Source: a virus. From it: DNA of 47,797 bases. Position numbers and translations under genes: made by a program. Under the pieces are notes generated by a model, which had not been told where the DNA came from, ran no database searches, and saw only the letters and a list, made by a program, of their open reading frames with translations. Positions 3,900-25,438 of the stretch are shown piece by piece; the stretch's first letter is position 1, and every line of letters starts with the position of its first letter. The stretch is from positions 38,088-85,884 of IMG/VR virus record IMGVR_UViG_3300029309_000009. One strand, given 5' to 3'.

Positions 3900-3901
3900 A
3901 T
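3835..3901 (+). repeat. duplicated ribosome-binding leader
   Basis: ttggagaaattaatat occurs at 3835-3850 and again at 3886-3901. The second copy supplies GGAG and the first bases of the ATG at 3900; the first copy is followed by tatagattag and opens no frame. The first copy looks like the remnant of a lost gene start or a duplicated leader. Confidence 0.7.
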
Positions 3902-4259
3902 GACATGGAAAGATACACTAAGAAAAGCACCTTTTGATACAGGTCAAATGAGAAGGGATTCACTAAAAAATATGAAAGAAAAAAACCAAAGGCGTTTGGA
4001 AGATTTTCCAAATACCTTAGAAATATATGTGGATGAGGTATTGGAAGAAGCAATAAGAACCAATCCTAAATCTGATACGGTTGAAATTAAAATAAGTGTG
4101 GGTCTAAGAAGTGCGCTAAATGATTTAGTTGAAAACGGTATTAAGATTTCCAAGTTAGAACAAATAATGGAAGATGAATATAATGTTGATGATGTAAGAA
4201 TTACTCTTACAGATAGTAAAGCACGAATAACTTTTAGAGGAATTGGGATGCGTGATTAA
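3900..4259 (+). CDS. tagged protein MTWKDTLRK, 119 aa
   Basis: First rightward gene. It opens with MTWKDTLRK, the first of the terminal Trp tags, then a basic linker (residues 10-40), then an alpha/beta part that ends in beta strands (VRITLTDSKARITF). GGAG at 3888 supports the start. The body resembles no family I recognise. Its stop is one base from the next tagged gene. Confidence 0.75.
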   Translation: MTWKDTLRKAPFDTGQMRRDSLKNMKEKNQRRLEDFPNTLEIYVDEVLEEAIRTNPKSDTVEIKISVGLRSALNDLVENGIKISKLEQIMEDEYNVDDVRITLTDSKARITFRGIGMRD

Positions 4260-4260
4260 T

Positions 4261-4455
4261 ATGACATGGGAAGATATAATAACTAAACAAAGCAGACCTA
4301 GAGAGGCACTTAAACAGGTATTAAGCGGAGTTGAGATAACTACTCTTGATGAATTGATAGGTAAATTAAGTGAAGATAACGCAAAAGAAGTTAGAAGAAT
4401 GATAGATTGGTATGTGAAGGAATATAGTCAAAAAAACCCAAAGAATGAAAGGTGA
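4261..4455 (+). CDS. tagged small protein MTWEDIITK, 64 aa
   Basis: The start is placed at ATG 4261 rather than an upstream in-frame codon at 4243, because it restores the N-terminal tag (MTWEDIITK) and follows GTGAT at normal spacing. The remainder is a short helical protein with a basic end (YSQKNPKNER). Nothing suggests function beyond membership of the tagged set. Confidence 0.7.
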   Translation: MTWEDIITKQSRPREALKQVLSGVEITTLDELIGKLSEDNAKEVRRMIDWYVKEYSQKNPKNER

Positions 4456-4460
4456 TTAAT

Positions 4461-4706
4461 ATGACATGGAAAGACGAGATTAGGAAGAATGAGCGATTTC
4501 TTACCGATATGAGAACTTACAAGCAAATGGGAATAATAGACCATTTCAAATCAATTGAAAGAATTAAGACTCTTGTAAAAGAAGGTGCTGGCGAATCAGA
4601 TATTATAGAGGCATTGAGCAATTTGCAAAAGTATCTTGCCAAGCAAAATGATTCGATTATTGATAAAATTCAATATGCTTATGAAGCAGGTATGAGGAAT
4701 GCTTGA
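4461..4706 (+). CDS. tagged small protein MTWKDEIRK, 81 aa
   Basis: The start is at ATG 4461 after AGGTGATTA; the upstream in-frame codon at 4452 would bury the tag. The protein is all-helical (LTDMRTYKQM..., then IIEALSNLQKYLAKQ). The helical body with a YL..L end is reminiscent of the short tagged proteins at 7964, 9238 and 16083, which may be distant paralogues. Confidence 0.7.
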   Translation: MTWKDEIRKNERFLTDMRTYKQMGIIDHFKSIERIKTLVKEGAGESDIIEALSNLQKYLAKQNDSIIDKIQYAYEAGMRNA

Positions 4707-4710
4707 AAAA

Positions 4711-4738: not shown

Positions 4739-5182
4739 ATGTGGAAAAGATTGCTAAAGAATCAAGTGCTAAAAGGCACAATCCAAAACTATACTTTTGA
4801 AAGGAAAATAAGGAGAATGGATAAAGGAAATAATACTATGGTTACTTATGATTATGAAGATAGAGGCAAAGATTCCGATATTGAACTTGATTGGAATACT
4901 GTAATTGTTGAATGGAGTATGAGTGTAGAAGAATATGATGATGGTTTAGAACTGAATGCTCCTCAAGTCCGAAAGGTGATTGTTGGTATTGACTTTATTG
5001 AAGATATAGGAGAAGAAGTTGAAACTTTAGCAGAAAATCTAGAATTAGAGACTACCGAAAATATCACGGTTGAAGAATTGGATAGAGTGGTCATGGGTTC
5101 CGTTATTATGCCGGAGGCCGATATTGAGATAGGGCAGAAGGATGGCAAATTTTACATCAAGAGTGTAAATATTAGTTGGTGA
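4739..5182 (+). CDS. tagged acidic protein MWKRLLKN, 147 aa
   Basis: The tag (MWKRLLKNQ) and GGTGAG eight bases upstream place the start at ATG 4739, not at the in-frame ATG 4703. A short basic stretch (residues 15-30) is followed by an acidic beta-rich body and a C-terminal NISW. The architecture (tag, then YDYEDRG..., then WSMSVEEY) is unlike its neighbours. Function unknown. Confidence 0.7.
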   Translation: MWKRLLKNQVLKGTIQNYTFERKIRRMDKGNNTMVTYDYEDRGKDSDIELDWNTVIVEWSMSVEEYDDGLELNAPQVRKVIVGIDFIEDIGEEVETLAENLELETTENITVEELDRVVMGSVIMPEADIEIGQKDGKFYIKSVNISW

Positions 5183-5209: not shown

Positions 5210-5695
5210 ATGAGTTGGAAAGAAATACTAAAAAACGATATGAAAAGAGTTAGAGATAAAGACAGAAGGCGTAATCCCGAAGAAAGGGATATGGTTGATA
5301 TTGAACCTAAACCTAAAGAGGAACTACCTCCACCTTCTAAGAAACCATTTAATCCATTTGGCTCCGATGCAGGTAAGAGGGCAAGGGATAGTAAGAAACG
5401 TAGAGCAGAAAGAGAAAAAAGAGAAGCATTTGATTCTATGATGGATACTAAGCCAAGTAGTAGAGAATCAGATTTATTAGAAAGAGCAAGGAAATTAAAA
5501 GAACAAAGGGCGAAGGAAGGAGAGAAATTATCTGATGAAGATGACGAATTGCTTACTAGGGAACAAAGAATAGCAAGAATAAAAGCCCTAAAAAGAGGTC
5601 ATGTAAAATCTCCAAGAATGGGAGTCGAAGGTGGCACAAAGGGAAGGGGCAGTAAAAGATACGGCAAAGGCTCAGAAGGATTTAGGGGTCAATGA
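5210..5695 (+). CDS. tagged disordered basic protein MSWKEILKN, 161 aa
   Basis: After the tag this protein is almost entirely charged and low in hydrophobic residues: Lys/Arg clusters, a Pro-rich segment (KPKEELPPPSKKP), then RARDSKKRRAEREKRE and a Gly/Lys-rich end (GGTKGRGSKRYGKGS). It is probably disordered and nucleic-acid binding, as expected for an internal DNA-associated protein; that is inference. Its TGA is followed one base later by a small frame at 5697. Confidence 0.75.
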   Translation: MSWKEILKNDMKRVRDKDRRRNPEERDMVDIEPKPKEELPPPSKKPFNPFGSDAGKRARDSKKRRAEREKREAFDSMMDTKPSSRESDLLERARKLKEQRAKEGEKLSDEDDELLTREQRIARIKALKRGHVKSPRMGVEGGTKGRGSKRYGKGSEGFRGQ

Positions 5696-5696
5696 T

Positions 5697-5804
5697 ATGA
5701 CAAGGTGCAAACTACTAGATTCGTGGTTAGATGTTAAGTCTAAAGAATTAGACAAGGCAGAAAAGAAAGCAGGTAAAGATTTGCTTACAGGTGAGAAAAA
5801 ATGA
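5697..5804 (+). CDS. small protein, 35 aa
   Basis: The ATG at 5697 is one base past the previous stop, and the TGA at 5802 overlaps the next start (ATGA). The frame encodes MTRCKLLDSWLDVKSKE..., ending LTGEKK. It fills what would otherwise be the only 100-base gap in this part of the operon, and the overlap suggests coupled translation. It contains DSWLDVKSK, possibly an internal relic of the Trp tag. Function unknown. Confidence 0.5.
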   Translation: MTRCKLLDSWLDVKSKELDKAEKKAGKDLLTGEKK

Positions 5805-5824
5805 CTTGGCAAGATATATTGAAA
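5785..5824 (+). repeat. duplicated ribosome binding site plus tag codons, copy A
   Basis: Forty bases from the ribosome binding site (ttacaggtgag) through the eighth codon of the tag match 6230-6269 at 39 of 40 positions. Directly after this unit the two proteins become unrelated. This shows tag and leader moving as a DNA unit. Confidence 0.9.
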
Positions 5825-6229
5825 TCAAGAAATTTAAGTATGTTGCTTTATGATTTTTTGAATTACATGGTTGATAAAGAAGAATTAGTAAATAGATTAG
5901 TTGGCGCACCTTTTAGAGATAAAGACCAAGTTGAAGAATGGTTTGAAGGAAACTTTGATAATTTAGATAGGGGCTTTTTAGGTAAATTACGAATGTATTT
6001 AGATTCCCCATATGATGATTCGGATTTTAGTCCTATTGAAATCTACACTAAAATAAATCCTAATGCTTCTGATGAAGAAGCGGCTAACTTCTTCAAAGAA
6101 GTCTATAATACAGGCAAGGTGGATAAGGGTTCTGAAAAAATTATATTTGAAATACTTGATAAAATTTCTAAATCAATTACCAAAGAAAGTATAGATATTT
6201 TTACAGGAAGAAACTATCTAGGATATTAA
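5801..6229 (+). CDS. tagged protein MTWQDILKS, 142 aa
   Basis: Start supported by AGGTGAG and by overlap with the preceding TGA. After the tag comes an acidic helical protein (residues 15-60 LLYDFLNYMVDKEEL...) with FEGNFDNLDRGFLGKL in the middle. No family is recognised. Its leader and first eight codons are almost identical to those of the next gene. Confidence 0.75.
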   Translation: MTWQDILKSRNLSMLLYDFLNYMVDKEELVNRLVGAPFRDKDQVEEWFEGNFDNLDRGFLGKLRMYLDSPYDDSDFSPIEIYTKINPNASDEEAANFFKEVYNTGKVDKGSEKIIFEILDKISKSITKESIDIFTGRNYLGY

Positions 6230-6269
6230 TTACAGGTGAGAAGAAATGACTTGGCAAGATATATTGAAA
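6230..6269 (+). repeat. duplicated ribosome binding site plus tag codons, copy B
   Basis: Partner of 5785-5824, differing at one base in the spacer before the ATG. The copies are 445 bases apart and in the same orientation, so recombination between them would delete or swap one protein body while keeping the tag. Confidence 0.9.
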
Positions 6270-6602
6270 AATACAAATTTCGATTTATATGAAATCAGAA
6301 GCAGGTTTGGTAAAGAAACCGCAGAAGAAGTGGAAAGAATGATTTATCTTAGAGATAATGAAGATATATTGTTTGAATTGATTGATGACATAGAAAGAAA
6401 TAAAATTAATTTTGGTCTTAAAGCCGCCACTAAAAATGCAGTAAACAATCTTAATCCATCAAGTAAATATGATGGTGATATTTTCTTTTATAACTTAGAT
6501 TTAGACAAAAGAGAAAAATATGAAAGATTCAAGAAAAACCCGTCTGTTATTATTGATGATGAACTAAACGCTATGTTGTCAGGATTTGCAGGAGACCTTT
6601 AG
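6246..6602 (+). CDS. tagged protein MTWQDILKN, 118 aa
   Basis: The tag is identical through MTWQDILK to the previous gene, including codons, but the body (NTNFDLYEIRSRFGKETAEEV...) is different. It is acidic and helical with a polar C-terminal half. Its end is followed directly by AGGTGAAAAG, the ribosome binding site of the next tagged gene. Function unknown. Confidence 0.75.
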   Translation: MTWQDILKNTNFDLYEIRSRFGKETAEEVERMIYLRDNEDILFELIDDIERNKINFGLKAATKNAVNNLNPSSKYDGDIFFYNLDLDKREKYERFKKNPSVIIDDELNAMLSGFAGDL

Positions 6603-6612: not shown

Positions 6613-6975
6613 ATGACTTGGCAAACAGTTTTGAAGGTTTTGACTCCTAGAATGTTTTTAGAAAATATTCGTAGTGTTATCGGTGGAGAAATTAGCGGTT
6701 CAAGTAGCAGGGCAGGAGATAGGTTTTTTTTAGATTCTAATAAAGGTAAAATTACCCTCAGTAGAAAAGGCTCATCACCCTACAATATTAGGCATTCTGA
6801 TTTCAACATAAACACACATGACTTACAAAAAGTTCTAGATAGTGTTTTATCTAAATTAATTGGAGAAACTGAAAAGGTTGCAGGTGCGGTTACTACGGGA
6901 AGTCCGGCTCATTCCCATTTATTCCGCCCTACATTCGGAGGTGGAAAACGTGCCAAAGATGAAGAAGAAGACTAA
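6613..6975 (+). CDS. tagged protein MTWQTVLKV, 120 aa
   Basis: Tag MTWQTVLKV, then a region with Ser/Gly turns (GGEISGSSSRAG) and beta strands (KITLSRKGSS), then a helix (DLQKVLDSVLSKLIG), ending in a His/Gly/Lys tail (SPAHSHLFRPTFGGGKRAKDEEED). The C terminus overlaps the next gene's start by 26 bases. No family is recognised. Confidence 0.75.
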   Translation: MTWQTVLKVLTPRMFLENIRSVIGGEISGSSSRAGDRFFLDSNKGKITLSRKGSSPYNIRHSDFNINTHDLQKVLDSVLSKLIGETEKVAGAVTTGSPAHSHLFRPTFGGGKRAKDEEED

Positions 6976-7954
6976 GACTAAAAATGGCAACACTGCTAAA
7001 CAGGAGTTGAAATCTACTAATTTTTTCAAACAGTTTCAAGAGTGGAAAGAATTAGAAGGAGTGGGATTTCTTCTAAGACATGGAATACAATCCTCAAATA
7101 CTGACAAAAGAAGAAAAACCATGCCTTCTATATCGGGTTCTCCTAGAGGACATAGAGACCATCTGCCTAGACTTTTTGAAATTATGGACTTTGATGATTT
7201 CATAGGTGAAAAGGAAAAGGACTACATTAGGGCATATTTGAAATTCATTGATGCGGCTAAAGGAACAAAGGCAGACCCCGCTATGATTCCCTATACAGAT
7301 AAAATCTACAACAGAGCAGGAAAGTTTGTAGGAACTAGGAAAGTCTACGGCCATTGGAAAACTGCAAACTTTGTAAAATATAGTAAAAAATACAAGGGGA
7401 GTTCTCCTGTTCCCGCTTCTTGGTATAGTTATGACGAAAGCAAACCGGCTACACCTCCCCCTCATCAAGCAATATACTCCAAGTCTAGCCCAAAGGGATT
7501 GAAAAGTATTCTAGAGGATGCTTTAAAGGAATTAGAAGATGGTGCTAATGTTAATTTTGAAATAACTAGGGTTTCTAATCCTAAAGAATTGTATAATTTA
7601 TCTGAAGTGAGGGAATTTTTAGAAAGCCAATTGACTCCATCTTTTGTTAAAGAGGGCTTGATAAATGCGAAGGCTATCGCTTCTAATTTAGCAGGACAAA
7701 AATTTGATGTGTCCGGAGAAACTGAAGAAGCATTAGTTAGAAGATTGAGTGGTTTTTCTGAGGATGAAATTGCAGGAGATGTAGATTTCTTTACTGTTAA
7801 GGTTTCTCCCGCTACTGTTGAAAGGGCATATCTAGCCTCTAATAAAAAGAAGGTTGGTGGGTTTTTCCTGCATGGAAGGGTTCTAGACAAAAGACCTAGA
7901 AAAGATGGAGAGCCGGTTGCTAAGTCTTGGTTAGAACTTTTAAAAGATTTTTAG
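6950..7954 (+). CDS. 334-aa protein with a C-terminal version of the tag
   Basis: The GTG at 6950 is chosen because GGAGGTG lies 5 bases upstream; a longer in-frame reading from 6860 would overlap the previous gene by 116 bases. The protein starts with a basic stretch (MPKMKKKTKTKN), has no N-terminal Trp tag, and ends VAKSWLELLKDF, matching the tag (SWxxLLK) at the C terminus. The body includes a Tyr/Lys-rich region and a segment GQKFDVSGETEEALVRR. Function unknown. Confidence 0.7.
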   Translation: MPKMKKKTKTKNGNTAKQELKSTNFFKQFQEWKELEGVGFLLRHGIQSSNTDKRRKTMPSISGSPRGHRDHLPRLFEIMDFDDFIGEKEKDYIRAYLKFIDAAKGTKADPAMIPYTDKIYNRAGKFVGTRKVYGHWKTANFVKYSKKYKGSSPVPASWYSYDESKPATPPPHQAIYSKSSPKGLKSILEDALKELEDGANVNFEITRVSNPKELYNLSEVREFLESQLTPSFVKEGLINAKAIASNLAGQKFDVSGETEEALVRRLSGFSEDEIAGDVDFFTVKVSPATVERAYLASNKKKVGGFFLHGRVLDKRPRKDGEPVAKSWLELLKDF

Positions 7955-7963: not shown

Positions 7964-8116
7964 ATGAGTTGGAAAGATTCTATAAAAAAAGGAGTTGGAG
8001 ATAGAGAGGAGGCTGCTGGACTTCTCTCTCAAGTTATAGAAGATATTAGAGATGGAAAAGAAATACTAATACTTGCTAGACTTAAACAGATTTTAGATTA
8101 CTTGGAGGGTGAGTAA
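7964..8116 (+). CDS. tagged small protein MSWKDSIKK, 50 aa
   Basis: A short gene between two larger ones. The ATG at 7964 follows AGGTGAAT, and TAA is directly followed by the ATG at 8117. After the tag is a single helical body, EEAAGLLSQVIEDIRDGKE..., ending LKQILDYLEGE. Together with those at 4461, 9238 and 16083 it represents the minimal tag-plus-helices form. Confidence 0.7.
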   Translation: MSWKDSIKKGVGDREEAAGLLSQVIEDIRDGKEILILARLKQILDYLEGE

Positions 8117-8776
8117 ATGACAGTAACTCGCAAGCGTTGTAAGTTTTGCCAACATGAAAGGCGAAGTGAACTTGAAGAAGAACTATCTTCGATGAAAATT
8201 TCTTGTGATGACTTGGATAAGAGAGAAGGTTGGAGAAGCGGAACTGCTGCCCAACATCAAAGAAATCACATGGGAGATTATGAAAATAGTAGCAATCCTA
8301 AGTGTAAGTTTTGCACAGACCCATTAAGAAGCCACTACGAAAAAGCATTGAGTTCGGGAGAAGTCACTACTGAAGGAATAGCAGAAACTTTACAAATTTC
8401 TAAGGAACAGGTGCAACGCCATATGAAGCACCATTTGGCTCCCCTAGTGCAAAAATCTGCGGCTAGTATTATTGCTAAAAAAGAAATTAATGAAATTGAT
8501 ATGTTAAGTGTAAATGTTCAGAAGTTAGATTCAAAGGTAAATGAATTGTTTAATCAAGACGATTTGAGCCATAAAGAAATTGATGCGTTAGTAAAACTAG
8601 CAAGAGAAGTCCGTGAGAGTTTGAAATATATTATGGAGTTCAAGGGTAAGTTGGTTCACAGAAGACAGGATACAATCATAGTCCATCAAATGCAAATTGT
8701 TCAGAAGGTCTTGGCACAAAACCATCCCGAAGTTTGGCTTGATGTAAAGAAGCAAATGCAGGAGGAATTACAATGA
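8117..8776 (+). CDS. tandem zinc-finger/HTH protein, possible small terminase
   Basis: A 219-aa protein with two repeats of C-x2-C-x35-H-x3-H at exactly the same spacing (C8, C11, H47, H51 and C63, C66, H102, H106). Each begins CKFC. The second repeat contains a helix-turn-helix-like stretch (TEGIAETLQISKEQVQRH). A helical region from about 120 to 219 could mediate oligomerisation. DNA-binding head plus helical tail upstream of TerL fits a small terminase subunit, but the large gap to TerL and weak family resemblance leave this tentative; a transcription regulator is the alternative. Confidence 0.6.
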   Translation: MTVTRKRCKFCQHERRSELEEELSSMKISCDDLDKREGWRSGTAAQHQRNHMGDYENSSNPKCKFCTDPLRSHYEKALSSGEVTTEGIAETLQISKEQVQRHMKHHLAPLVQKSAASIIAKKEINEIDMLSVNVQKLDSKVNELFNQDDLSHKEIDALVKLAREVRESLKYIMEFKGKLVHRRQDTIIVHQMQIVQKVLAQNHPEVWLDVKKQMQEELQ

Positions 8777-9225
8777 GTTGGGAAAACTTACTGAAAAGGT
8801 GGGCGTATGGTGCCGATAATATTGTCGAATATTTACAATCCGTTAGGCGGCAAATAGATTTAGTTTTAGATTCTGATAGGGGATTTAATCAAAAAATAAA
8901 GGAAATGAAAGAAGAAATCAAAGCCATGACTAAGGAACGATTTGATAGAATGAAAAATAATAAGAAAACAAGTGTGCAATATAGACTTGCGAAGGAATAT
9001 TTTGAAGAAGGTAGTATGTTGTATGAAAGACTTGTAAATAAATTCGGCCACTATGCGGCAAGGAGGGCTAGAATCCCCAATGAGATAATTAGAGAGATGG
9101 CTCGACATGAACATGACATGGAAATATTAAGTTTATTTGGTTTAGAAGAACCAAAAAAATATACTGTTGATATGATGGAAGATTGGTATATGTCGGGACA
9201 TTATGATGAATATGAGGACGCATAA
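8773..9225 (+). CDS. tagged helical protein MSWENLLKR, 150 aa
   Basis: The start overlaps the previous stop (ATGA) and follows AGGAGGAATTAC. After MSWENLLKR the protein is long-helical and charged (residues 20-75), then has FGHYAARRARIP followed by acidic helices. It may be a packaged or scaffolding protein; no family is recognised. The identical ribosome binding site string ggaggaattacaatga recurs before the next gene. Confidence 0.75.
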   Translation: MSWENLLKRWAYGADNIVEYLQSVRRQIDLVLDSDRGFNQKIKEMKEEIKAMTKERFDRMKNNKKTSVQYRLAKEYFEEGSMLYERLVNKFGHYAARRARIPNEIIREMARHEHDMEILSLFGLEEPKKYTVDMMEDWYMSGHYDEYEDA

Positions 9226-9237: not shown

Positions 9238-9417
9238 ATGAATTGGGAAGGAATAATTAAATCAACAATGCCTAAAAGATTTAATGAAATTACAGATGCA
9301 CGTGGCATGTTAAAACTGATGGTAGAAGAAAACCCAAGATATAAGGGGGATTACCTGCTTGAAAAAATCCTAAAATATTTAGAAGATTATTTAGATAGAA
9401 CGGAGAAATTGCAATGA
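9238..9417 (+). CDS. tagged small protein MNWEGIIKS, 59 aa
   Basis: A short gene with the strong leader GGAGGAATTACA, copied from that of the previous gene. It encodes MNWEGIIKSTMPKRF..., then helices ending KILKYLEDYLDRTEKLQ. Its TGA overlaps the next ATG (ATGA at 9414). It resembles the other minimal tagged proteins. Confidence 0.7.
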   Translation: MNWEGIIKSTMPKRFNEITDARGMLKLMVEENPRYKGDYLLEKILKYLEDYLDRTEKLQ

Positions 9418-9716
9418 GTTGGTCTAATTTGTTAAAAAGAATCCGTAGAGAGCAAAGAAAACGCTTTCAAGTCACCGATTATGACTCAGAATTAAACAAG
9501 AAAATAGGAGAAATGAGTAAAAAAATGAAAGAAATAGAGTCTGAACTATTTTCTCTAAGCGAAAAAAAGAAAAACGCCACAACTTTTCAAGAAAGTCAAG
9601 AAATTTCTAAAAAAATAGAAGAAACTGCCAAAAAATTGAAAGAAATTAGGAAAAAAATGGGTAAAATAGAGGCGACTAGAATAATTAGGCGTAGAGGAAG
9701 TAGAGATTTTAGGTGA
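9414..9716 (+). CDS. tagged coiled-coil protein MSWSNLLKR, 100 aa
   Basis: Tag MSWSNLLKRIRRE, then a nearly continuous Lys/Glu-rich heptad coiled coil from about residue 25 to 90 (GEMSKKMKEIESELFSLSEK...), ending in a basic RRRGSRDFR. It is probably an elongated dimer. Its neighbours are tagged on both sides. Confidence 0.75.
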   Translation: MSWSNLLKRIRREQRKRFQVTDYDSELNKKIGEMSKKMKEIESELFSLSEKKKNATTFQESQEISKKIEETAKKLKEIRKKMGKIEATRIIRRRGSRDFR

Positions 9717-9721: not shown

Positions 9722-11728
9722 GTGTGGAATCTGCTTTTGAAAAGAACTACTCCTCTTGATATTCTAAGAGGAGGGTTAAGTCCATATTTAGATGATGCAG
9801 ATTGGGAAAGAAGGCTGGAAGAAATTGATAATTATCGTGATTCTGAGAGTCGTAGCCAAAAAAAGAGAGATTTCAACAAATTGATTGAAGAACTTGGCAA
9901 ATATTCAAAGAATAAAGACGGATTTATTAGAGAATTTAAGGAAAATTTTAGAGAAGGCATGGATATTTCTATATTTAGGGCAAAAATGGACTTAGCCTTG
10001 CAAAGATATGGAACAAAAAAGCGTCAGACCTCTGTTTCTCCTAGAGCAAAACTACTTTCTCTTGCTAGAGAAATAGAGGAGTCTATGGATAGTTCTAAAA
10101 TGAATGAATTTATGTCTTTAGCGGAAAAACATCCAAAAATAATAATAGAAAGTGAAACTTTAAGGCAATTAAAAAAGCAATTGGAAAAATTATCCAAAGG
10201 AAGCATGCTTTATTTTAAAACAGAGACTCCACCTGCCGAAGTTTTAGACGCTTTTCTTAAATTAATGGGTGGCGAAGTAATAAATTACGGAAAAACAGAT
10301 AGTGGAGAAACAATACAAACTATACTCTATCCTAATCTTTCTGTTGGCGAATGGATGAAAAGATGGAATGCTTCATTTGAAGAATTAAAACAAAATATAA
10401 GTCAAAATCCCGAAAGAGTCAAAACATTAAAGCCACTTTTAGAGGAAATAAAAGACAGTCGCCCGATTATACTTCAGGCAGGAATAAAAGAAGATGTTCC
10501 GCTAGATTCTGTTAAATTTTATTCTGTGGAAGGCTTTACCGACCAATCAATGAGAGAATTTCTTGAAATTATAAACAAAACTGGTGGAGGCGTTGATAAA
10601 TTTATTCCTTCCGGAGTTTCTTTAGAGTTAGAAGGGATTAATGTTAAAGGCTCTAGTATAAAAGAATTAATTTCTCCGTCTAAACAAGGAGGAACTATTA
10701 GAACTAATCCGTATTTGTCTCTACTATTAGAAGCGATAGGGGAAAGTGATTGGTTTTCTACGTTATTGAGCAGAACTAAACAATCTAAAATAATAAACAA
10801 GGGTAGGTTAATTGCGCTAATAAATATGGATGCCGAAAGAACTTTTAACGAAAGTCTAAGCACTAGTCCTATCTTTGGATTAGAAGTCAATGAGGATGAA
10901 GCACCGGAAGAATTAGATAAATACAAGCGATGGTTTCGTAGTCAGATAGACATTGCCTCTACTAGTAATTTACTACAAGAAGAAATAACTCCTACTATAT
11001 CTTCTAAAGTCAAAACTATATTAGATGATGCCATAGAAAAATTTGGTCTTGAAAGGTTCTTAGTTAGGCCAAATTTGCATAAAGTAAGCAGTATTGATTT
11101 TGAACCCGTAACAATAAAAGGAATATCTAGATTTAAATTAGTTGATGGAGAAAAAGAATTGACTTCTAAACAAATAGAAGCCTTATCAAACAAAATTACG
11201 CAGGAACTTCAAAAGGAAGTTAGTTCAGCGCAAAGAGATACTTCAGAAGAACTTCCGACAGGCTTCATAGCCTCTCTTGCTTCCGATAGTGCGCTTTTAC
11301 AGTCTATTAAATCAGAAACAGCCGTCAATAGACTATTAGCAGCAGGTTCATTTCAACAACTAATGAGTTCTTATCCTTTGATTAAAACTAGTAAAAAATC
11401 GGCAAAGATAACTACTCTTTCTGCTTTATCTCCGGAGAATCTGATTATATTCTTTGTTAAGTTAGATGATTTGACAGGCTTCTCAACACAATCTAATTCT
11501 GTTCTAGAGTATTATGAAAGAATAGATGCGTCTAAAGATTTTAAAGAGAGAAAAAGGATAATCTCACAATTAGAAAAATCTATTGAAGAAAAAATAATAT
11601 CTTTTAGAAATGCTTTGCAAGTATTTTTTGAAGAAAATTTGAGGAAGTTGATTTCACAAAGAAGACTTCCGAAGAAGTTATTAGATAAACTCATTGACAA
11701 GGGAATAGTTACGGAGGTTAGTGTATGA
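9722..11728 (+). CDS. large tagged protein MWNLLLKR, 668 aa
   Basis: GTG start at 9722, which begins the tag MWNLLLKRTTPLD. It is the largest tagged protein and is mostly helical and charged. No enzyme motif is visible: no Walker box, no DEDD or polymerase signature. It is directly coupled (4-base overlap) to the equally large 11725 gene, so the two may form one complex. Size and position upstream of TerL would fit an internal core or ejection protein, which is inference only. Confidence 0.7.
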   Translation: MWNLLLKRTTPLDILRGGLSPYLDDADWERRLEEIDNYRDSESRSQKKRDFNKLIEELGKYSKNKDGFIREFKENFREGMDISIFRAKMDLALQRYGTKKRQTSVSPRAKLLSLAREIEESMDSSKMNEFMSLAEKHPKIIIESETLRQLKKQLEKLSKGSMLYFKTETPPAEVLDAFLKLMGGEVINYGKTDSGETIQTILYPNLSVGEWMKRWNASFEELKQNISQNPERVKTLKPLLEEIKDSRPIILQAGIKEDVPLDSVKFYSVEGFTDQSMREFLEIINKTGGGVDKFIPSGVSLELEGINVKGSSIKELISPSKQGGTIRTNPYLSLLLEAIGESDWFSTLLSRTKQSKIINKGRLIALINMDAERTFNESLSTSPIFGLEVNEDEAPEELDKYKRWFRSQIDIASTSNLLQEEITPTISSKVKTILDDAIEKFGLERFLVRPNLHKVSSIDFEPVTIKGISRFKLVDGEKELTSKQIEALSNKITQELQKEVSSAQRDTSEELPTGFIASLASDSALLQSIKSETAVNRLLAAGSFQQLMSSYPLIKTSKKSAKITTLSALSPENLIIFFVKLDDLTGFSTQSNSVLEYYERIDASKDFKERKRIISQLEKSIEEKIISFRNALQVFFEENLRKLISQRRLPKKLLDKLIDKGIVTEVSV

Positions 11729-14089: not shown

Positions 14090-14299
14090 ATGTGGCAAGA
14101 AATTTTGAAAAAGAAAAAGAAAAAGAAGAAGTATAAAGCCCCTGCCGGAGTTTATACTAAACCGAAACTAAGAGAAAGAATACATGCTACTTTGCTTAAT
14201 CAAAATACTCATGGAACAGCAAAGGGGAAGTGGTCTGGTCGTAAGTCGCAGGAATTGAATAGAAGGTATCAAGAGGCAGGTGGCGGTTTTGTCAATTAA
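14090..14299 (+). CDS. tagged basic phage protein MWQEILKK, 69 aa
   Basis: The tag runs into eight consecutive lysines. The body then has KLRERI, GKWSGRKSQELNRRYQEAGG, a pattern familiar from many tailed phages (K-x-R-E-x-[IL]...G-x-W-[ST]-x-R-K-x-Q-x-L...Y-x-x-A-G-G-G), where function is unknown. Here a conserved phage family has acquired the local N-terminal tag. It is likely DNA- or RNA-binding from charge. Confidence 0.8.
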   Translation: MWQEILKKKKKKKKYKAPAGVYTKPKLRERIHATLLNQNTHGTAKGKWSGRKSQELNRRYQEAGGGFVN

Positions 14300-15471: not shown

Positions 15472-15795
15472 ATGACTTGGGACTATTACAATATAGAAAA
15501 AAGAGGTAAAAGTTACCATAGAAGGAAATTTATTGAAAGGCACAATTTGCCCATTAAAAGGCTATTGGGCGAATTAGAAGAAAGGTATGAAGATGTTCAT
15601 TCTGAATTGATTGCATCTTCAACAGGCACAGTAAGAGATTTATATGGTTTTGATAAACAAATGAAAATGGTTAAGGAGTTACAAGATGTTCTTATAGAAA
15701 TAACAAAAGATATAGAAAAACAAAAAAGCAAACTAAAAACATTACCTGCTGATAAAGTAAAAGGTAAAGGAAAAGGACAAAAGAGGACAAATTAA
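15472..15795 (+). CDS. tagged protein MTWDYYNIEK, 107 aa
   Basis: First member of the MTWDYYN subtype. The first 23 bases are identical to those of the gene at 25199, 9.7 kb away. The body is a basic segment followed by a long helix (ELEERYEDVHSELI..., KMVKELQDVLIEITKD) and a Lys/Gly-rich tail (KVKGKGKGQKRTN). Function unknown. Confidence 0.75.
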   Translation: MTWDYYNIEKRGKSYHRRKFIERHNLPIKRLLGELEERYEDVHSELIASSTGTVRDLYGFDKQMKMVKELQDVLIEITKDIEKQKSKLKTLPADKVKGKGKGQKRTN

Positions 15796-15804: not shown

Positions 15805-16077
15805 ATGTCATGGGAAAATGTCCTAAAAAAAGAAATAGATTTGGTTTTGCCAAGAGGAAAACAGAAGGTTCTCAAGGCAGAAGATAAAGACTATGACAGA
15901 GGACTTCTCGTTAAACTTCTAAAGAATGGCGGATATGAAATGGCATATTGGGCTGGTGAACATAAGCCCTATCCTGTTGAAGTATTGGTTGATGGAAAGT
16001 CAATAAAGAAAGATGCTAAGAAAGTTACTATGAAATTTCATCCCGAAATGGAGGAGAACAGAGATAAGAAGGATTGA
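15805..16077 (+). CDS. tagged protein MSWENVLKK, 90 aa
   Basis: Start at ATG 15805 after AGGTGATTA. The tag is followed by a small beta-rich domain (KVLKAEDKDYDRG..., GGYEMAYWAGEHKPYPVEVLVDG) and an acidic, charged end. It is a compact single domain rather than helical, showing that the tag is attached to different folds. Confidence 0.75.
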   Translation: MSWENVLKKEIDLVLPRGKQKVLKAEDKDYDRGLLVKLLKNGGYEMAYWAGEHKPYPVEVLVDGKSIKKDAKKVTMKFHPEMEENRDKKD

Positions 16078-16082: not shown

Positions 16083-16283
16083 GTGGATTGGCGTATTATT
16101 CTAAAAGATTGGAGAGATAAAGCGAGGGGTGACTTAGATGCACCGGAAAGCACTATCATTTTACAGCAATCTCTATTTTATATGGAAGAAGTCAAAAAGA
16201 TGCTACAAAAGAAAAATCCTAACATACCCGATATAATTAATTTTTTAGAATATAATATTAAAATATTAAAGGAGGAATTATAG
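16083..16283 (+). CDS. tagged small protein MDWRIILKD, 66 aa
   Basis: The GTG at 16083 gives the tag MDWRIILKDWRDK; the upstream in-frame TTG at 16074 would add three residues before it. The remainder is helical (LQQSLFYMEEVKKMLQKK..., IINFLEYNIKILKEEL). The stop TAG shares its G with the next GTG start. It belongs to the minimal tag-plus-helices group. Confidence 0.65.
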   Translation: MDWRIILKDWRDKARGDLDAPESTIILQQSLFYMEEVKKMLQKKNPNIPDIINFLEYNIKILKEEL

Positions 16284-16612
16284 TGAGTTGGAAAAAAATT
16301 CTAAAAATAGATGAGATAGATATGGAATCTTCTATCAGTATGGCTACAAAATACTTAGATGAAATAGAAGGGTATGCTTCATACTATTATGGTGCTGGAT
16401 ATTCTCCCGATTTTGACGATGAGGGGGAGGCCGATACTTTTCAAAACCAAATATACAAAGATATTGAAACCATGAATAGATTATTCAAAAACCCTACTAA
16501 AGAAAATTTAGAAAAAATAGAAACAATGTCAAATGCCTTAGCCCAAGATATTGAATCTGAACATAACCCACTAGAAGTAATTCCTTCCTTTGATATTCAG
16601 TATAGAGAGTGA
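16283..16612 (+). CDS. tagged acidic protein MSWKKILKI, 109 aa
   Basis: GTG start at 16283 preceded by AGGAGGAATTATA. After the tag comes an acidic helical protein with an aromatic stretch (GYASYYYGAGYSPDFDDEGE) and a second helix (NLEKIETMSNALAQDIE). No family is recognised. Confidence 0.75.
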   Translation: MSWKKILKIDEIDMESSISMATKYLDEIEGYASYYYGAGYSPDFDDEGEADTFQNQIYKDIETMNRLFKNPTKENLEKIETMSNALAQDIESEHNPLEVIPSFDIQYRE

Positions 16613-16617: not shown

Positions 16618-16971
16618 ATGTCTTGGCAAACTATTCTAAAGAAGAAGCCCAAAAGTGCTAAGTCAAGGGCTAAAGAAAGAGCCAAAAAGAAAGGACTCAA
16701 AGGAATAAATAAACCTCAGAGGCTAAAAGATGATTCGGATAAATCTCATCATGTTATGGCCTTTGAAGGAAAAAAGGCCAAGTATATCAAATTCGGACAA
16801 AAGGGGGTTAAGACAAATCAAACTGCCGGACAAAGAAAGGCTTTCAAATCTCGCCATGCTAAGAACATCAAGCGTGGAAAAATGTCTGCGGCATATTGGG
16901 CTAACAAAGTAAAGTGGAGTCCTAGTAAGACTAAAGAAAAGAAAAATAAAAATTGGCGAAAGGGGAGTTGA
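16618..16971 (+). CDS. tagged basic phage protein MSWQTILKK, 117 aa
   Basis: The ATG at 16618 is used because it exposes MSWQTILKKK. A Lys-rich linker is followed by a domain with VMAFEGKKAKYIKFGQKG, then RKAFKSRHAKNIKRGK and AAYWANKVKW. This order (IxFGxxG, RxxFxxRH, A-x-Y-W-x-x-x-x-W) matches a small basic family I recall from many tailed phages, of unknown function. As at 14090, a widespread family carries the local tag here. Confidence 0.8.
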   Translation: MSWQTILKKKPKSAKSRAKERAKKKGLKGINKPQRLKDDSDKSHHVMAFEGKKAKYIKFGQKGVKTNQTAGQRKAFKSRHAKNIKRGKMSAAYWANKVKWSPSKTKEKKNKNWRKGS

Positions 16972-17201: not shown

Positions 17202-18656
17202 ATGGAAATTAGCGATTTCAATTTAGAACATCAGATGGATTTTGAACTATCTAGAAACTCATTTCCATATTTTTTTCAGCATGTCTGTGGCCCTGCTCTT
17301 GGATTAGAAACCTACTATTATCCAAAATATATGGAAGAATGGTTAGAACTAATGCACAGCACTCAAAGAACGGTTTTAATTTGTAGCAGAGACCACGGTA
17401 AATCTGTATTTATGCACTGTTGGGTTATTTGGAATTTAATTTTTCAGCCTAAAGGCTATCAAATGGTCTATATTTCTTCTAATCAAAAGCAGACTTTAGT
17501 GCATATGCGAGAAATTGACAAATATTTCACTCACCCTATGCTTCAAAGGTTTAAGCCGATAAGGGGATGGTCAGTAGGACATATTAGATTAACTAATGGA
17601 AATGAACTATTAGCAAGGTCAGTGGGTTCGCAAATTCGTGGTCTGCACCCAAATGAAATAATTATTGATGACCCGCTAAAAGAGTTTTCAATGTCGGCTA
17701 TCCAAAAGGTTACAGATTGGTTTTATAGCGATATGATACCGACTTTACATCATTCTGCATCTTTACGGGTTATAGGAACGCCATTTAGTTATACGGATAT
17801 TTATGCCCAACTTGCAGAAAATGACGTTTATGAAGTCAGAACCTATCCTTGCCTTAACTCCTTAAATGAACCATTGTGGCCCGATAGATGGGATTACAAT
17901 TCTTTAATGTTAAGAAAAGGAGAGATAGGCACAATAGCATTTACTAGAGAATATCTTTGCGTTCCTATGTCTACTGGAACTTCTCTGTTCAATCCCGAAT
18001 ATCTTGATAATTCTAAATCTAAAGACTATATTTTGAAGCCTCAAAGAAGAAAAGATTTCAGATATTATGTCGGGGTAGACCCTGCAATATCTACTGATGG
18101 TGATTACAATGTTATCACTGTTTTAGAAGTAGATGAAAATGATAATAAGACTGTAATATATGTTGATAGGGCAAAAAATGTAGACTTTAGGCAGAACATA
18201 GAGAAGGTCAAAATGATAGGTAAAATTTTCAATCCGGAAGTGGTTTTATTTGAAACTAATACTTTTGCCAAATCATTTACTCAAGAACTAAAGACTGTTT
18301 CTGATTTGAATGTTCACGATTTCACCACCACTAGAAAAAGAAAGCAAGAGATTATTCTCAATCTACAAATGAATTTTGAAAATGGTAAAATAAGATTGCC
18401 TTATGGTAATGAAGAAAGTAGAAGGGTTACATCTACTTTAATAGAGGAATTATCTATGTTTGCCATTACTGAAAGCGGTAGATTTGAAGGAATAGGGGCG
18501 CATGACGATATGGTTATGAGTCTCGCTTTGGCTAATGCTGCTACTCATACTTTGAGCGAGAAGTTTATTCATTTAGATGACTTGGGAATCTTTGACGATA
18601 AACCAATTGCTCCTAAGCCTTTTGCTGGAAGGGGAATTATGGGACTGAACTTTTGA
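17202..18656 (+). CDS. terL: terminase large subunit (DNA packaging ATPase/nuclease), 484 aa
   Basis: Packages DNA into the prohead with an N-terminal ATPase and cuts concatemers with a C-terminal RNase H-like nuclease. Visible motifs are: Walker A variant CSRDHGKS (61-68), Walker B IIIDD (153-157), the coupling motif IGTP (191-194), and acidic nuclease residues D293 (VGVDPAIS), E351 (LFETNT) and D435/D436 (AHDDMVMS). Length is normal for the family. The ATG follows the 16974 stop directly. It is the clearest anchor for calling this a tailed virus. Confidence 0.93.
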   Translation: MEISDFNLEHQMDFELSRNSFPYFFQHVCGPALGLETYYYPKYMEEWLELMHSTQRTVLICSRDHGKSVFMHCWVIWNLIFQPKGYQMVYISSNQKQTLVHMREIDKYFTHPMLQRFKPIRGWSVGHIRLTNGNELLARSVGSQIRGLHPNEIIIDDPLKEFSMSAIQKVTDWFYSDMIPTLHHSASLRVIGTPFSYTDIYAQLAENDVYEVRTYPCLNSLNEPLWPDRWDYNSLMLRKGEIGTIAFTREYLCVPMSTGTSLFNPEYLDNSKSKDYILKPQRRKDFRYYVGVDPAISTDGDYNVITVLEVDENDNKTVIYVDRAKNVDFRQNIEKVKMIGKIFNPEVVLFETNTFAKSFTQELKTVSDLNVHDFTTTRKRKQEIILNLQMNFENGKIRLPYGNEESRRVTSTLIEELSMFAITESGRFEGIGAHDDMVMSLALANAATHTLSEKFIHLDDLGIFDDKPIAPKPFAGRGIMGLNF

Positions 18657-18665: not shown

Positions 18666-18950
18666 ATGTCTTGGAAAAACATACTAAAGGATGAGCCATT
18701 TGATGACTTTAGATTTAATATGTCTTCTATGCACCAAGAAATGCTTCAAAAAGAAAAGGAAATGGTCATCAAAGATGCTCAGTTTGAAATTGAAAAACTA
18801 TTAGATTACAAAGATAAGTTATTACAGTATAAGCAAAATGAAAGGTTAGACAAATTTGTTGATGCAGATTTGCCATTAAGACCACTTGATAATGTAATCG
18901 CTGCTATCAATAAATGGATTTCTTCTATGGAAGATAATATGGGAATGTGA
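18666..18950 (+). CDS. tagged helical protein MSWKNILKD, 94 aa
   Basis: Directly downstream of terL with GGTGATATT as ribosome binding site. The tag is followed by Met-rich and charged helices (MHQEMLQKEKEMVIKDAQ...), a likely coiled coil. Its place between terL and the portal suggests a packaging or portal-associated role, but this is positional inference only. Confidence 0.75.
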   Translation: MSWKNILKDEPFDDFRFNMSSMHQEMLQKEKEMVIKDAQFEIEKLLDYKDKLLQYKQNERLDKFVDADLPLRPLDNVIAAINKWISSMEDNMGM

Positions 18951-18954: not shown

Positions 18955-19248
18955 ATGGCGGATTGGAAAGATAAACTCAAAAGAACTAAGCCCCCTAAAA
19001 AATATGGTATGAAAAGAGGAAAAAAATACGGAACTACTGTTTTTGGAGAAATAAAAGAAAAGGAAACTTCGCATACAAGAGCAAGAGATATGCCTAAGAG
19101 TATAATATTTGACTATTTTAGAATATACCAAAGACTACACAATAGAGTTCCTACGCTAAAAGAAATAGTAGAAGAAGAAGGTCGTTCATTAACTTCAGAT
19201 GAAATAGAAGATTACTACGATGAATACAAAAGAATGGGAGGAAATTAA
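18955..19248 (+). CDS. tagged basic protein MADWKDKLKR, 97 aa
   Basis: Opens MADWKDKLKRTK, a tag with one additional residue before Trp. The next 40 residues are Lys/Arg rich, followed by a helical domain (FDYFRIYQRLHNRVPTLKEIVEEEG) with winged-helix character, then an acidic Tyr-rich end. The following gene starts one base past its stop. It could be DNA-binding. Confidence 0.7.
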   Translation: MADWKDKLKRTKPPKKYGMKRGKKYGTTVFGEIKEKETSHTRARDMPKSIIFDYFRIYQRLHNRVPTLKEIVEEEGRSLTSDEIEDYYDEYKRMGGN

Positions 19249-20748: not shown

Positions 20749-22380
20749 ATGGCAGAGAAAAGAAGGTTCTCCTTGACTAATTTATTTAGGAAGACTACTC
20801 CTACTCCAACGGATAGAGAGATATACAATATCGGAATACAAGAGAAAACTCCTGCTCAGATGCTAAATGGGCCATTGATTTACAATATAGTTCAAAATTC
20901 TGTGATAACTAGAACCTGTTTGACACAACTAAAACAAGAAGTTTTCAGAAGGGGATATATTTGGGAAAAGGCATATGAGGCTAGATGTGAGGAATGCGGT
21001 AAGGAGCATAAGAGGCCGGTTAAGGAATGTATGAGGTGTGGTAGTGAAAAATTACAAGTTCCTAATGTTAAGCAATTAGAATATGCTGAGAAATTTTTAG
21101 AAGGATATGTTAATGCTTCTGAACAACTTTTCATTGATGTTCTTAGAGAACTAGAAGATGATTTGAATATTATGGATGATGCCTATATTGTATTCGTAAA
21201 GGAGTATTATATTGATGGTAATGGAAAAATTAGGATGCACAGAATAAAAGAAATTTATCGTGGAGACCCTGTAAGTATGCACATATATGCTGATGAAGAA
21301 GGTGTAAGAGGGACTAAAGGTTTTACTTGTATTCATCATAGAGATTTTATTTCTAAAGAACCTCATGATTTATGTGAAAGATGTGGGGATGCTCTTTATC
21401 CTGTTCATTATGTTAATAGGGCTAAAGGAGATGACCAATATTTCATAAAAGGCGAAGTGTTACATTTTAGTAAATATAGTCCTAGTAGACTTTATGGCCT
21501 ATCTCCTATAATGACTCTTTACAATCATATTATGACTCTTATCGCTATGGAAAATTATGTCAATGCTTCCTATACTAAGAGCAGAATGCCGAGAGGAATG
21601 CTTGCCGTTCAAACTAGAAATATGGAATCAATGATGGCTTTTTGGCGTGGAGTCAAAGAAAGAATGGAGCAAGACCCTCATTATATTCCTGTAATGGGAA
21701 TAGAAGCCGAAGGAGGAAAGGGTTCTATTGAATGGATTAAATTTATGGATAGTCTAAAAGAAATGGAATATGTTTCCGTCAAAGATGATTTGCGAGATAG
21801 AATATCTGCTTTTTATGGAGTTAGTAAGATATTTATGGCAGACAATACTACTAGCGGAGGATTAAATAATGAGGGTATGCAGATACTTGTTACTAATCGT
21901 GCAGTGCAAATGGCGCAAAATGTCTACAATGAATATGTATTTCCATTCTTAACTACTCAATTTGGAATTACTGATTGGAAACTCAAATTACCACCATCTG
22001 AAGAAGAAGATGAAATTGCAGTTCTTCGTAAGAGAGAAATAGAAGTCAATATTGCTGCATCTACTAAGAATCTAGGATTTGAAATAGAAATGGATGAAGA
22101 TGGAAACTTTACCTTCACCAAACCGGAAGTAGAAAAAGAGGAACCTGCTGATGAAGAAATGTTACAGCCCGACCCACTTGCAGGGTCTAATTTAGACCAA
22201 AGAGATTTAGATGAACAGGCTAGAATATTTGCTCAAGGTGGAGGAAATCAGCAACAAAATTCACCGGCAACTAGAAATAAACCGAGTATGGAGACAGGGC
22301 CGGATAAGAGGTTTAGTGGACTTCCTAAAGAAGCAGGAAATCAGAATGTAGATTCAAGAACAGAAAGGAGAGTTGGTTGA
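20749..22380 (+). CDS. portal protein with two zinc-binding insertions, 543 aa
   Basis: Forms the dodecameric DNA entry ring at one vertex. Support comes from position after TerL, length, and portal-like text such as FSKYSPSRLYGLSPIMTLYN and YGVSKIFMADNTTSGGLNNE, followed by a Gln/Pro-rich acidic tail. Unusually, it carries C80-x2-C83-x10-C94-x2-C97 and a second cluster C194, H196/H197, C209-x2-C212, both resembling zinc ribbons. Known portal families seldom have these. The ATG follows a GGGTGTTG ribosome binding site. Confidence 0.85.
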   Translation: MAEKRRFSLTNLFRKTTPTPTDREIYNIGIQEKTPAQMLNGPLIYNIVQNSVITRTCLTQLKQEVFRRGYIWEKAYEARCEECGKEHKRPVKECMRCGSEKLQVPNVKQLEYAEKFLEGYVNASEQLFIDVLRELEDDLNIMDDAYIVFVKEYYIDGNGKIRMHRIKEIYRGDPVSMHIYADEEGVRGTKGFTCIHHRDFISKEPHDLCERCGDALYPVHYVNRAKGDDQYFIKGEVLHFSKYSPSRLYGLSPIMTLYNHIMTLIAMENYVNASYTKSRMPRGMLAVQTRNMESMMAFWRGVKERMEQDPHYIPVMGIEAEGGKGSIEWIKFMDSLKEMEYVSVKDDLRDRISAFYGVSKIFMADNTTSGGLNNEGMQILVTNRAVQMAQNVYNEYVFPFLTTQFGITDWKLKLPPSEEEDEIAVLRKREIEVNIAASTKNLGFEIEMDEDGNFTFTKPEVEKEEPADEEMLQPDPLAGSNLDQRDLDEQARIFAQGGGNQQQNSPATRNKPSMETGPDKRFSGLPKEAGNQNVDSRTERRVG

Positions 22381-24353: not shown

Positions 24354-24355
24354 TT

Positions 24356-24694
24356 ATGACTTGGGATTGGTATGGAGATATTTTAAAAGATGAAGGAAAA
24401 ATATTGGCTTCATTAGATAAAAAGGAAAGAAAGGCGTTAAAGAAAACCCTTCAATCCGCAGAACCTAGTGAATATTTTGGTCAAGATTTTACTAAATTAG
24501 GGGAACTTTTAGATATGATTAAAGAGTTAGATTTGGTTAAAACAGATAAGACATTATCTAAGAAGTTAGAAACAATGGATGAGGCCAACTTAGATATATT
24601 AGCCACAGCCAGCAAACTTCGTAAAGAGTATGAAGTTCTTTATAGACAAATTAGAAAAATAGTATATCCAAAAAGAGGAGGAGATTTAAGATGA
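24356..24694 (+). CDS. tagged protein MTWDWYGDILKDEG, 112 aa
   Basis: Carries a hybrid of both tag types (MTWDWY followed by DILK). The body is helical and Lys/Leu-rich, with KKERKALKKTLQSAEP near residue 25 and a basic end. Its ribosome binding site GGAGGAATAG overlaps the end of the 577-aa gene. Its stop overlaps the next ATG. Confidence 0.75.
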   Translation: MTWDWYGDILKDEGKILASLDKKERKALKKTLQSAEPSEYFGQDFTKLGELLDMIKELDLVKTDKTLSKKLETMDEANLDILATASKLRKEYEVLYRQIRKIVYPKRGGDLR

Positions 24695-24930
24695 CAGAAA
24701 TAAATGAAGAAATAGTAATGTTACTAAAGACATTAGTAGAGAGAGTTCAGCAATTAGAAAAGGTAGCATATAATGATGACAATGTTTTAATGAAGTCGGG
24801 ATTTGTTGTTACTAATAGCCCTACCCCATCAATGAATAACAAAGCCGCTTCTGCATTTTCTATGGATAGTGTGGCTAATATGTCCTTTGAAGAAATGGCT
24901 AAAATAATTGAAAAGGCAGGTGGAAGATAA
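24691..24930 (+). CDS. 79-aa protein sharing the scaffold C-terminal motif
   Basis: Has a helical N-terminal half (NEEIVMLLKTLVERVQQLEK), a Ser/Asn-rich linker, and ends FSMDSVANMSFEEMAKIIE. The core SMD-x-VANMS-[WF]-x-[ED]-[LM] is shared with the last 20 residues of the protease/scaffold at 28378-29589 (SMDDVANMSWADLNRLAGN). The common tail may contact the same partner, such as the capsid protein. The stop TAA overlaps the next ATG. Confidence 0.7.
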   Translation: MTEINEEIVMLLKTLVERVQQLEKVAYNDDNVLMKSGFVVTNSPTPSMNNKAASAFSMDSVANMSFEEMAKIIEKAGGR

Positions 24931-25193
24931 TGACTTGGGATTATTATAATGATAAAGAAATAAAAAAGAGCGAAACTTATAGTATGGTTATGTCTGTAAG
25001 TGTTCTTCTAGAAAAAGATGGCGAACAGGTAGAGGCACACGAACTTAATATTTCTGAAAGGGAGTTGCATGGAATAGTTCAAGATATTCTAAAACAGGCT
25101 AAAGGCACAAGATATTCTACTGAAGTAGAAGATGATGAAGGGGAAGAAACTCTTATCGAAGTGACTATTGAAGATGTTTCAGAAAATAGGTGA
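24930..25193 (+). CDS. tagged protein MTWDYYNDKE, 87 aa
   Basis: MTWDYYN-type tag, written with different synonymous codons from the two other members, evidence that the peptide itself is selected. The body is a small beta/alpha domain (YSMVMSVSVLLEKDGE..., EVTIEDVSENR) with acidic character. Starts at the last base of the previous stop. Confidence 0.75.
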   Translation: MTWDYYNDKEIKKSETYSMVMSVSVLLEKDGEQVEAHELNISERELHGIVQDILKQAKGTRYSTEVEDDEGEETLIEVTIEDVSENR

Positions 25194-25198
25194 GTGAA

Positions 25199-25438
25199 AT
25201 GACTTGGGACTATTACAATATTAAGAAAGAAGAAGAAACACTTACTTCTAGTAATACTATTACTGATTCTAGAAGTGCTGATTCTTATTTGTCTATGAGA
25301 ACTCGACTAAACAAAGCGTTTGATGCTATTTATGATTTAATCAATCCCCTTGTAGAGCAAGAAGTTTTGGACTATCAAGAAGATTTAATGGAATTTACAA
25401 GAGTAGTGGATAAAATTATGAAAAAACTAGGTGAGTAA
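25199..25438 (+). CDS. tagged protein MTWDYYNIKK, 79 aa
   Basis: ATG 25199 is preferred over the GTG-type in-frame start at 25190, as it gives the tag MTWDYYNIKKEEE after GGTGAGTGAA. The first 23 bases match the gene at 15472 exactly. The body is helical with LNKAFDAIYDLINPLVEQEV and an acidic/hydrophobic end. Confidence 0.7.
   Translation: MTWDYYNIKKEEETLTSSNTITDSRSADSYLSMRTRLNKAFDAIYDLINPLVEQEVLDYQEDLMEFTRVVDKIMKKLGE

Follow-up and report, generated by a model that had tools for sequence, protein, structure and literature searches.

A portable tryptophan-containing terminal peptide on unrelated late proteins of a magrovirus: a proposed scaffold-mimicking capsid-targeting and release signal

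Twenty-seven open reading frames (ORFs) between positions 3900 and 25438 of the window (the whole stretch of 47,797 nucleotides that was analysed, bases 38088–85884 of an 85,884-base virus record) began with a short peptide of the form M-[ST/N/K]-W-x-x-[IL]-[LIV]-K or a near variant. All were read on the plus strand (Table 1), and their number was exactly that reported for 3.9–25.4 kb in an earlier, sequence-only reading of this DNA. The tag was portable between unrelated proteins, its motif also formed the C-termini of two head-module proteins, a shared K-site pattern connected it with the capsid protein and the prohead protease, and K was exchanged for R in its C-terminal copies. From the sharing with the scaffold, the K-site pattern and the topology of the tags, we propose a two-part capsid-targeting and release signal, in which the W half mimics the docking tail of the scaffold and the S78 protease cuts after the K. 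We assign this reading a probability of about 0.7.

Table 1. Positions of tagged ORFs, head-module landmarks and proposed cleavage sites in the window. A slash within a motif marks a proposed cut or the junction in front of a C-terminal tag.
Feature	Position	Strand	Remark
N-tagged ORF MTWKDTLRK	3900..4259	+	
N-tagged ORF MTWEDIITK	4261..4455	+	
N-tagged ORF MTWKDEIRK	4461..4706	+	
N-tagged ORF MWKRLLK	4739..5182	+	W at position 2
N-tagged ORF MSWKEILK	5210..5695	+	basic, pI 10.1
N-tagged ORF MTWQDILK	5801..6229	+	
N-tagged ORF MTWQDILK	6246..6602	+	
N-tagged ORF MTWQTVLK	6613..6975	+	
C-terminal tag PVAK/SWLELLKDF	7919..7951	+	end of ORF stopping at 7954
N-tagged ORF MSWKDSIKK	7964..8116	+	
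N-tagged ORF MSWENLLK	8773..9225	+	
N-tagged ORF MNWEGIIK	9238..9417	+	
N-tagged ORF MSWSNLLK	9414..9716	+	basic
N-tagged ORF MWNLLLK	9722..11728	+	668 aa, GTG start
N-tagged ORF MWQEILK	14090..14299	+	very basic
N-tagged ORF [ATT]KWVSILK	14295..14582	+	probable ATT start
N-tagged ORF MNWKEILK	14579..15010	+	basic, Cys-containing
N-tagged ORF MKWKTVLK	15007..15447	+	EF-hand-like stretch (below Pfam cut-off)
N-tagged ORF MTWDYYNIEK	15472..15795	+	WDYY variant
N-tagged ORF MSWENVLK	15805..16077	+	
N-tagged ORF MDWRIILK	16083..16283	+	GTG start
N-tagged ORF MSWKKILK	16283..16612	+	GTG start
N-tagged ORF MSWQTILK	16618..16971	+	pI 11.1
Large terminase subunit (TerL)	17202..18656	+	untagged landmark
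N-tagged ORF MSWKNILK	18666..18950	+	
N-tagged ORF MADWKDKLK	18955..19248	+	
Portal protein	20749..22380	+	untagged landmark
N-tagged ORF MTWDWYGDILK	24356..24694	+	WDYY-class variant
79-aa head-module protein	24691..24930	+	[VL]MK/S site 24784-24798; C-terminal MSFEEM motif 24880-24927
N-tagged ORF MTWDYYNDKEIKK	24930..25193	+	
N-tagged ORF MTWDYYNIKK	25199..25438	+	
S78 prohead protease fused to scaffold-like region	28378..29589	+	profile match
Protease-scaffold proposed cuts, after K	28428 FQILK/A; 28887 FDILK/Q; 29499 TILK/A	+	
Scaffold C-terminus MSWADLNRLAGN	29551..29586	+	motif as in N-terminal tag
Major capsid protein, SU10/HK97 fold	29603..30946	+	proposed propeptide residues 1-29
Capsid protein proposed cut DILK29/Q30	29689/29690	+	

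A loose regular expression for the tag gave 22 matches on the plus strand of the window and none on the minus strand, against 0.026 expected from residue shuffles of the 59 window genes. Some tags lacked ILK and had TLR, IIT, EIR, SIK or KLK variants instead. The upstream 38 kb of the same genome, the early arm, contained no tag, and tags were restricted to the late, head-side module. Tagged proteins were more basic, with a pI above 9 in 52% vs 28% of the untagged proteins. The start sites used differed from those of the longest ORF in some cases (4261, 4461, 7964, 16083, 16618 and 25199). The sequence-only reading had named true starts elsewhere as a refuter, and this was checked: Shine-Dalgarno-like boxes preceded 75% of tag starts but only 14% of in-frame ATGs inside genes; of the 658 tags counted in the window and its relatives, 573 began no more than 30 nt after the preceding stop. 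Wrong start codons were thereby ruled out as an explanation.

The early arm, on the reverse strand, encoded PolB, the RFC small subunit, an ATP-dependent ligase, an ERCC4-type nuclease, a Cpn60 chaperonin and a TFIIB-like zinc ribbon. PolB, RFC, the ligase and Cpn60 scored above their Pfam cut-offs, the zinc ribbon just below. The Magrovirales layout, with archaeal replication genes in one arm, oppositely oriented virion genes and about 90 kb in total, was thus fulfilled, and the capsid protein was related to Druskaviridae. Together with this relation of the capsid protein, the arm layout is the one that ICTV describes for magroviruses, which constitute the order Magrovirales and are predicted, as yet uncultured, viruses of Poseidoniales, an abundant group of ocean archaea; the virus is a magrovirus (order Magrovirales, predicted host Poseidoniales). 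Without a magrovirus in culture, there is neither a virion proteome nor a known cleavage site. The structural genes of HCTV-5 (Druskaviridae) and of the methanogen virus vir335 had no tag at the N-termini read. Among GTDB genomes, only two matching contigs were found, labelled Maricaulis and Altibacter, and they gave no host evidence; these magrovirus-like contigs (L168 and L169) are probably virus contigs misbinned into MAGs. Two distinct ATP-dependent DNA ligases were observed in one virus, a late one of 840 aa amid the head genes (25812–28334) and an early classical one (3030–4574 of locus L087).

Close relatives were represented by about 150–160 loci from TerL and capsid-protein searches, some of which overlap on one contig. 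The counts cover related sequences and not independent events. Together with the window, these loci held 658 unique N-tagged proteins, and 760 of 3098 predicted genes on the plus strand but 0 of 191 on the minus strand were tagged. The tag logo read M-[STN]-W-x-[DNE]-[IV]-[LI]-K, with conservation dropping sharply after the K; in a 150-member alignment of tagged proteins, W alone was invariant and K reached at least 90%. The bodies behind the tag formed 230 BLAST clusters, 145 of them singletons. This agreed with the earlier description of the bodies as otherwise unrelated, ruled out shared ancestry of the whole proteins, and fulfilled the membership test for a short terminal peptide on unrelated proteins, as in the capsid-targeting sequence (CTS) of T4. 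In 25 genomes of 84–97 kb, a fixed DNA pattern matched 4–16 times each, nearly always on one strand, and the reversed-pattern control matched twice. Across 31 tagged families, the tag expression was matched by 336 of 382 N-complete homologues, and many of the remainder had variant tags by eye. Another 71 loci, whose capsid proteins were as little as 43% identical to the L169 query, still had tags, 0–10 in each. Pfam and PHROGs searches with 150 tagged representatives returned essentially no functional annotation; with cargo bodies almost devoid of recognisable domains, no function supports injection.

The motif was also found at the end of two head-module proteins. The protease–scaffold ended in M-[SDE]-W-x-[DE]-[ILV] (loose form, last position [ILVA]) in 101 of 102 unique tails, and the loose motif ended the 79-aa protein in all 111 unique tails, with F for W in 11; the copy in the window ends MSFEEMAKIIEKAGGR. 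A position-specific scan for non-N-terminal matches also retrieved both tails. In both, the Met two residues ahead of the W was conserved though it is no start codon, and the tail motifs were kept in viruses with capsid proteins of 43–60% identity. The scaffold tails read IHK or IN-x rather than ILK. A C-terminal scaffold motif common to other proteins fulfilled the membership test for scaffold mimicry of the 80alpha/CpmB type when tails were compared with the tag logo. The N-terminal location described in the sequence-only reading therefore stands but is incomplete, given the C-terminal copies in the window (Table 1), and its boundary at 25.5 kb does not apply to the motif as such, since the scaffold C-terminus beyond it carries one.

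The second half of the tag recurred at sites where a maturation protease would be expected to act. The capsid protein met the requirement for HK97-fold membership (PF17236, 28.9 bits vs a cut-off of 24.1), and Foldseek matched its moderate-confidence model best to 6j3q (E 2e-5); a sequence search of solved structures with the capsid profile gave nothing meaningful. In this AlphaFold2 model, built from diverse rows (pLDDT 62) and relied on only for the overall fold and the placement of the N-terminal segment, K29 lay in a low-confidence N-terminal segment, and the ordered HK97-like core followed after about residue 94. A first model from close relatives only (pLDDT 34) was discarded. Haloviral capsid homologues aligned only from residue 47–59 onward. 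K29 was invariant in 59 capsid sequences, preceded by [LIV]-[LM] (one P2 exception) and with A, Q, S or G as the next residue, whereas neighbouring columns were variable and contained indels; two capsid proteins had ISK in place of [IL]LK. The protease (S78 family, PF04586, 36.9 bits, cut-off 21) had [IV][LIM]K/ just before its domain in 90 of the 91 sequences covering that region, and [IL][LVI]K/ was matched in 95 at the junction with the scaffold, right after the domain. The 79-aa protein had [LVI]xK/[SA], for example LMK/S, in 108 of 111 sequences. No obvious ILK site was seen near the N-terminus of the portal protein. [IL][LM]K was thus common to the tag, the capsid protein, the protease N-terminus and the protease/scaffold junction, with cleavage at these sites inferred. 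Judged from sequence and without cleavage data, the pattern is as expected of a maturation protease cutting after Lys.

If ILK is a cut site, an N-terminal tag needs the K after it, a C-terminal tag a K before it, and an internal tag both. Tags did occur at C-termini and inside proteins. Clear C-terminal tags read K-[SG]-W-x-x-[IVL]-[LIM]-[KR], as in IVLK/SWMDILRN of locus L062, and the C-tagged proteins listed had no N-terminal tag. Position +5 was R in 6 of 10 C-terminal tags vs 8 of 597 N-terminal tags (Fisher p 9e-9, or 1e-7 after reduction to families); the p-value is only a guide, because the K-[SG]-W cases were chosen after the data had been seen. Of 52 non-N-terminal [SGTN]-W matches, 27 had K in front, vs 13% K overall, and eight more had I in front, mostly from a family with an ATT start. 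Several internal matches may be chance or fold-related, and HLWLSVMR inside the capsid protein was rejected as a tag and taken as part of the capsid fold. Long proteins near TerL had one or two internal W-x-x-[IL]-[LI]-K (L060 6874–8757, L082 6061–8142, L063 5463–6746), as if several cargo units had been fused, to be cut apart later. In the window and its relatives, the small protein directly upstream of TerL (16953–17201 in the window) often ended in a weaker C-terminal tag, which in the window copy is KKWQTTLK near the end.

The whole octapeptide could instead be a docking motif for capsid protein or scaffold and nothing else, with ILK binding rather than being cut and the tag remaining on the cargo. 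ILK is possibly part of the dock, because Ile residues mediate the contact of the 80alpha/SaPI1 scaffold motif RIIK with the capsid protein (PMC5644958), and I and L at +3 and +4 from the W would lengthen a W-based hydrophobic face. Docking alone leaves unexplained, however, why W-less copies of [IL]xK close the capsid propeptide and mark both the protease N-terminus and the junction with the scaffold, why C-terminal tags often have R for K and a K placed in front, and why the scaffold tails themselves lack ILK; we therefore regard it as unlikely. The WDYY-class tags had K at residue 15 in 16 of 48 cases, mostly from one family, and ILK within residues 7–18 in 19 of 48 (4 in shuffles). The docking and cut-site parts of the tag look separable, because some WDYY-class tags carry the ILK site further along, and the class is explained in part only.

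In the two-part reading, tagged cargo would be synthesised late in infection, and the W half, M-[ST]-W-x-[DE]-I, would dock in the growing prohead where the scaffold tail would also bind, most likely on the capsid protein (its N-terminal arm or inner face) or on the scaffold assembly itself. Docking would carry about 27 different proteins into the prohead. Once the prohead had closed, the S78 protease would be activated and would recognise the [IL]-L-K half, cutting after K. Its predicted [IL]-x-K sites lie in the tags, at capsid residue 29 and, within the protease–scaffold itself, at the N-terminus, the junction and the tail, so that the 29-residue capsid propeptide would be removed and small peptides lost. 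DNA would then be packaged around the freed, often basic cargo, which may stay with the DNA and would probably be injected. Binding partner, cleavage, encapsidation and injection are all inferred, there being no virion data. Against this reading stand the window tags and the many WDYY-class tags without ILK, the two capsid proteins with ISK and the absence of an obvious ILK site near the portal N-terminus. Prohead targeting resembling that of the T4 CTS, one of two roles suggested by the sequence-only reading, is supported, as it accounts for most of the independent evidence, namely the motif at the scaffold C-termini, the shared K-site and the K flanks, with encapsidation still an inference; the other suggested role, at the portal, found no support of its own. 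The sequence-only reading had overlooked the scaffold ending and the likeness of ILK to a maturation cleavage site. More tentative, and a little short of even odds in our judgement, is the wider proposal of a position-independent, self-excising scaffold-mimic tag, bracketed by K, that fills a prohead core with dozens of fast-changing proteins delivered with the DNA.

Binding of the tag to a portal or tail-side protein, so that pilot or ejection proteins are loaded at one vertex and not throughout the prohead, would suit the several tagged genes that adjoin the terminase and portal genes. The scaffold and the 79-aa head protein nevertheless carry the motif, no evidence singles out the portal, and 27 clients would, by inference, compete for 12 sites, which makes this version improbable. 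Still less credible, in our view, is a role in which the tagged proteins are not virion cargo and the tag would send them to some other partner in the cell, such as the viral chaperonin, a membrane or a virus factory: the virus does encode Cpn60, and the small tagged proteins have no known function, but no early gene is tagged, the motif recurs at the scaffold C-termini, and the K-site pattern fits capsid maturation. The Ser, Ile, Leu and Lys codons of the tag varied, with AGT and TCN serines and all six leucine codons in use; because of this variation, including both serine codon families, selection acts on the tag peptide and not on nucleotides. A nucleotide-level translation signal or a repeated duplication of 5' gene ends without a functional peptide, to which only the preference for AGT as the serine codon beside the start lends any support, can practically be dismissed given this codon usage, the internal and C-terminal copies without a start codon and the retention of the tag by homologues in related viruses.

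The two-part reading has its closest counterpart in T4, where IPI–III and Alt carry a CTS of which, in IPIII, residues 4 and 7 serve targeting and residues 8 and 10 then serve processing; gp21 cuts after L/I-x-E, and Alt is processed at its C-terminus too (PMC9026906). Both tags are short N-terminal peptides on unrelated proteins (head-internal in T4), and the magrovirus tag is proposed to share with the T4 CTS a targeting part followed by a processing part, and a hydrophobic-x-charged cut motif for one protease that also serves capsid protein and scaffold. Unlike the T4 CTS, the magrovirus tag combines W-x-[DE]-I with [IL]LK, has about 27 clients per genome and over 200 families in the clade, belongs to archaeal viruses, occurs also at C-termini and internally, and forms the scaffold C-terminus. 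The gp21-type motif was not met, as the tag ends in K (the residue after which the cut is proposed) and not in E, and we therefore classed it as working like a T4 CTS, not as one. The 80alpha scaffold and SaPI1 CpmB share a C-terminal RIIK and bind the same capsid-protein site (PMC5644958). There, too, a second protein shares the scaffold's C-terminal peptide (binding in the magrovirus is inferred), but only two proteins are involved, at the C-terminus only, with another sequence and for size redirection instead of cargo loading. An N-terminal stretch of P1 DarB suffices to send a reporter to the capsid, and P1 also has a prohead protease, with a single client and no scaffold mimicry reported in the accessible parts of that source (PMC9024508). 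Prohead targeting is also ascribed to the N-terminal propeptides that several SPN3US head proteins lose, but these propeptides have 100 or more residues and a T4-like cleavage motif and include no portable octapeptide (PMC7411985). In HK97, the N-terminal scaffold domain that a viral protease removes from the capsid protein is 103 residues long (PMC10275583). Unlike in HK97, the magrovirus scaffold-like region is fused to the protease, the capsid propeptide is about 29 residues long and there are cargo tags. The HK97 maturation protease is S78-related and cuts after Lys (K103). Encapsulin cargo-loading peptides are likewise short and portable and dock unrelated cargo inside an HK97-fold shell; they are non-viral and usually C-terminal, and they are not known to be removed by a protease.

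No report of the tag was found in the open-licence papers searched on magroviruses and capsid targeting; to our knowledge, a capsid-targeting role, if true, would be the first known from archaeal viruses. Such a role would also allow the proteins inside the virions of this uncultured order to be read from sequence, with about 27 candidates here and over 200 families in the clade for roles in host take-over or anti-defence. Cargo loading would be linked to scaffold mimicry, and a short tag would be available to load cargo into HK97-fold shells.

Some ORFs among the tagged genes deserve separate mention. The tagged 668-aa ORF is adjoined by an untagged ORF of 786 aa (11725–14085) without a Pfam match, and an untagged 461-aa ORF (19220–20605), LAGLIDADG-like by eye and without a Pfam match at 0.01, lies between the tagged genes and the portal gene. 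The EF-hand-like calcium loop of the protein at 15007–15447 reached E 7e-5, and similar tagged proteins occurred in relatives. The tagged family of the ORF at 14295 (L019 13295, L062 12833 and others) appears to begin ATT-AAT/AAG-TGG, with a GGTGG box upstream; the codon was ATT in every relative read, as in the window copy.
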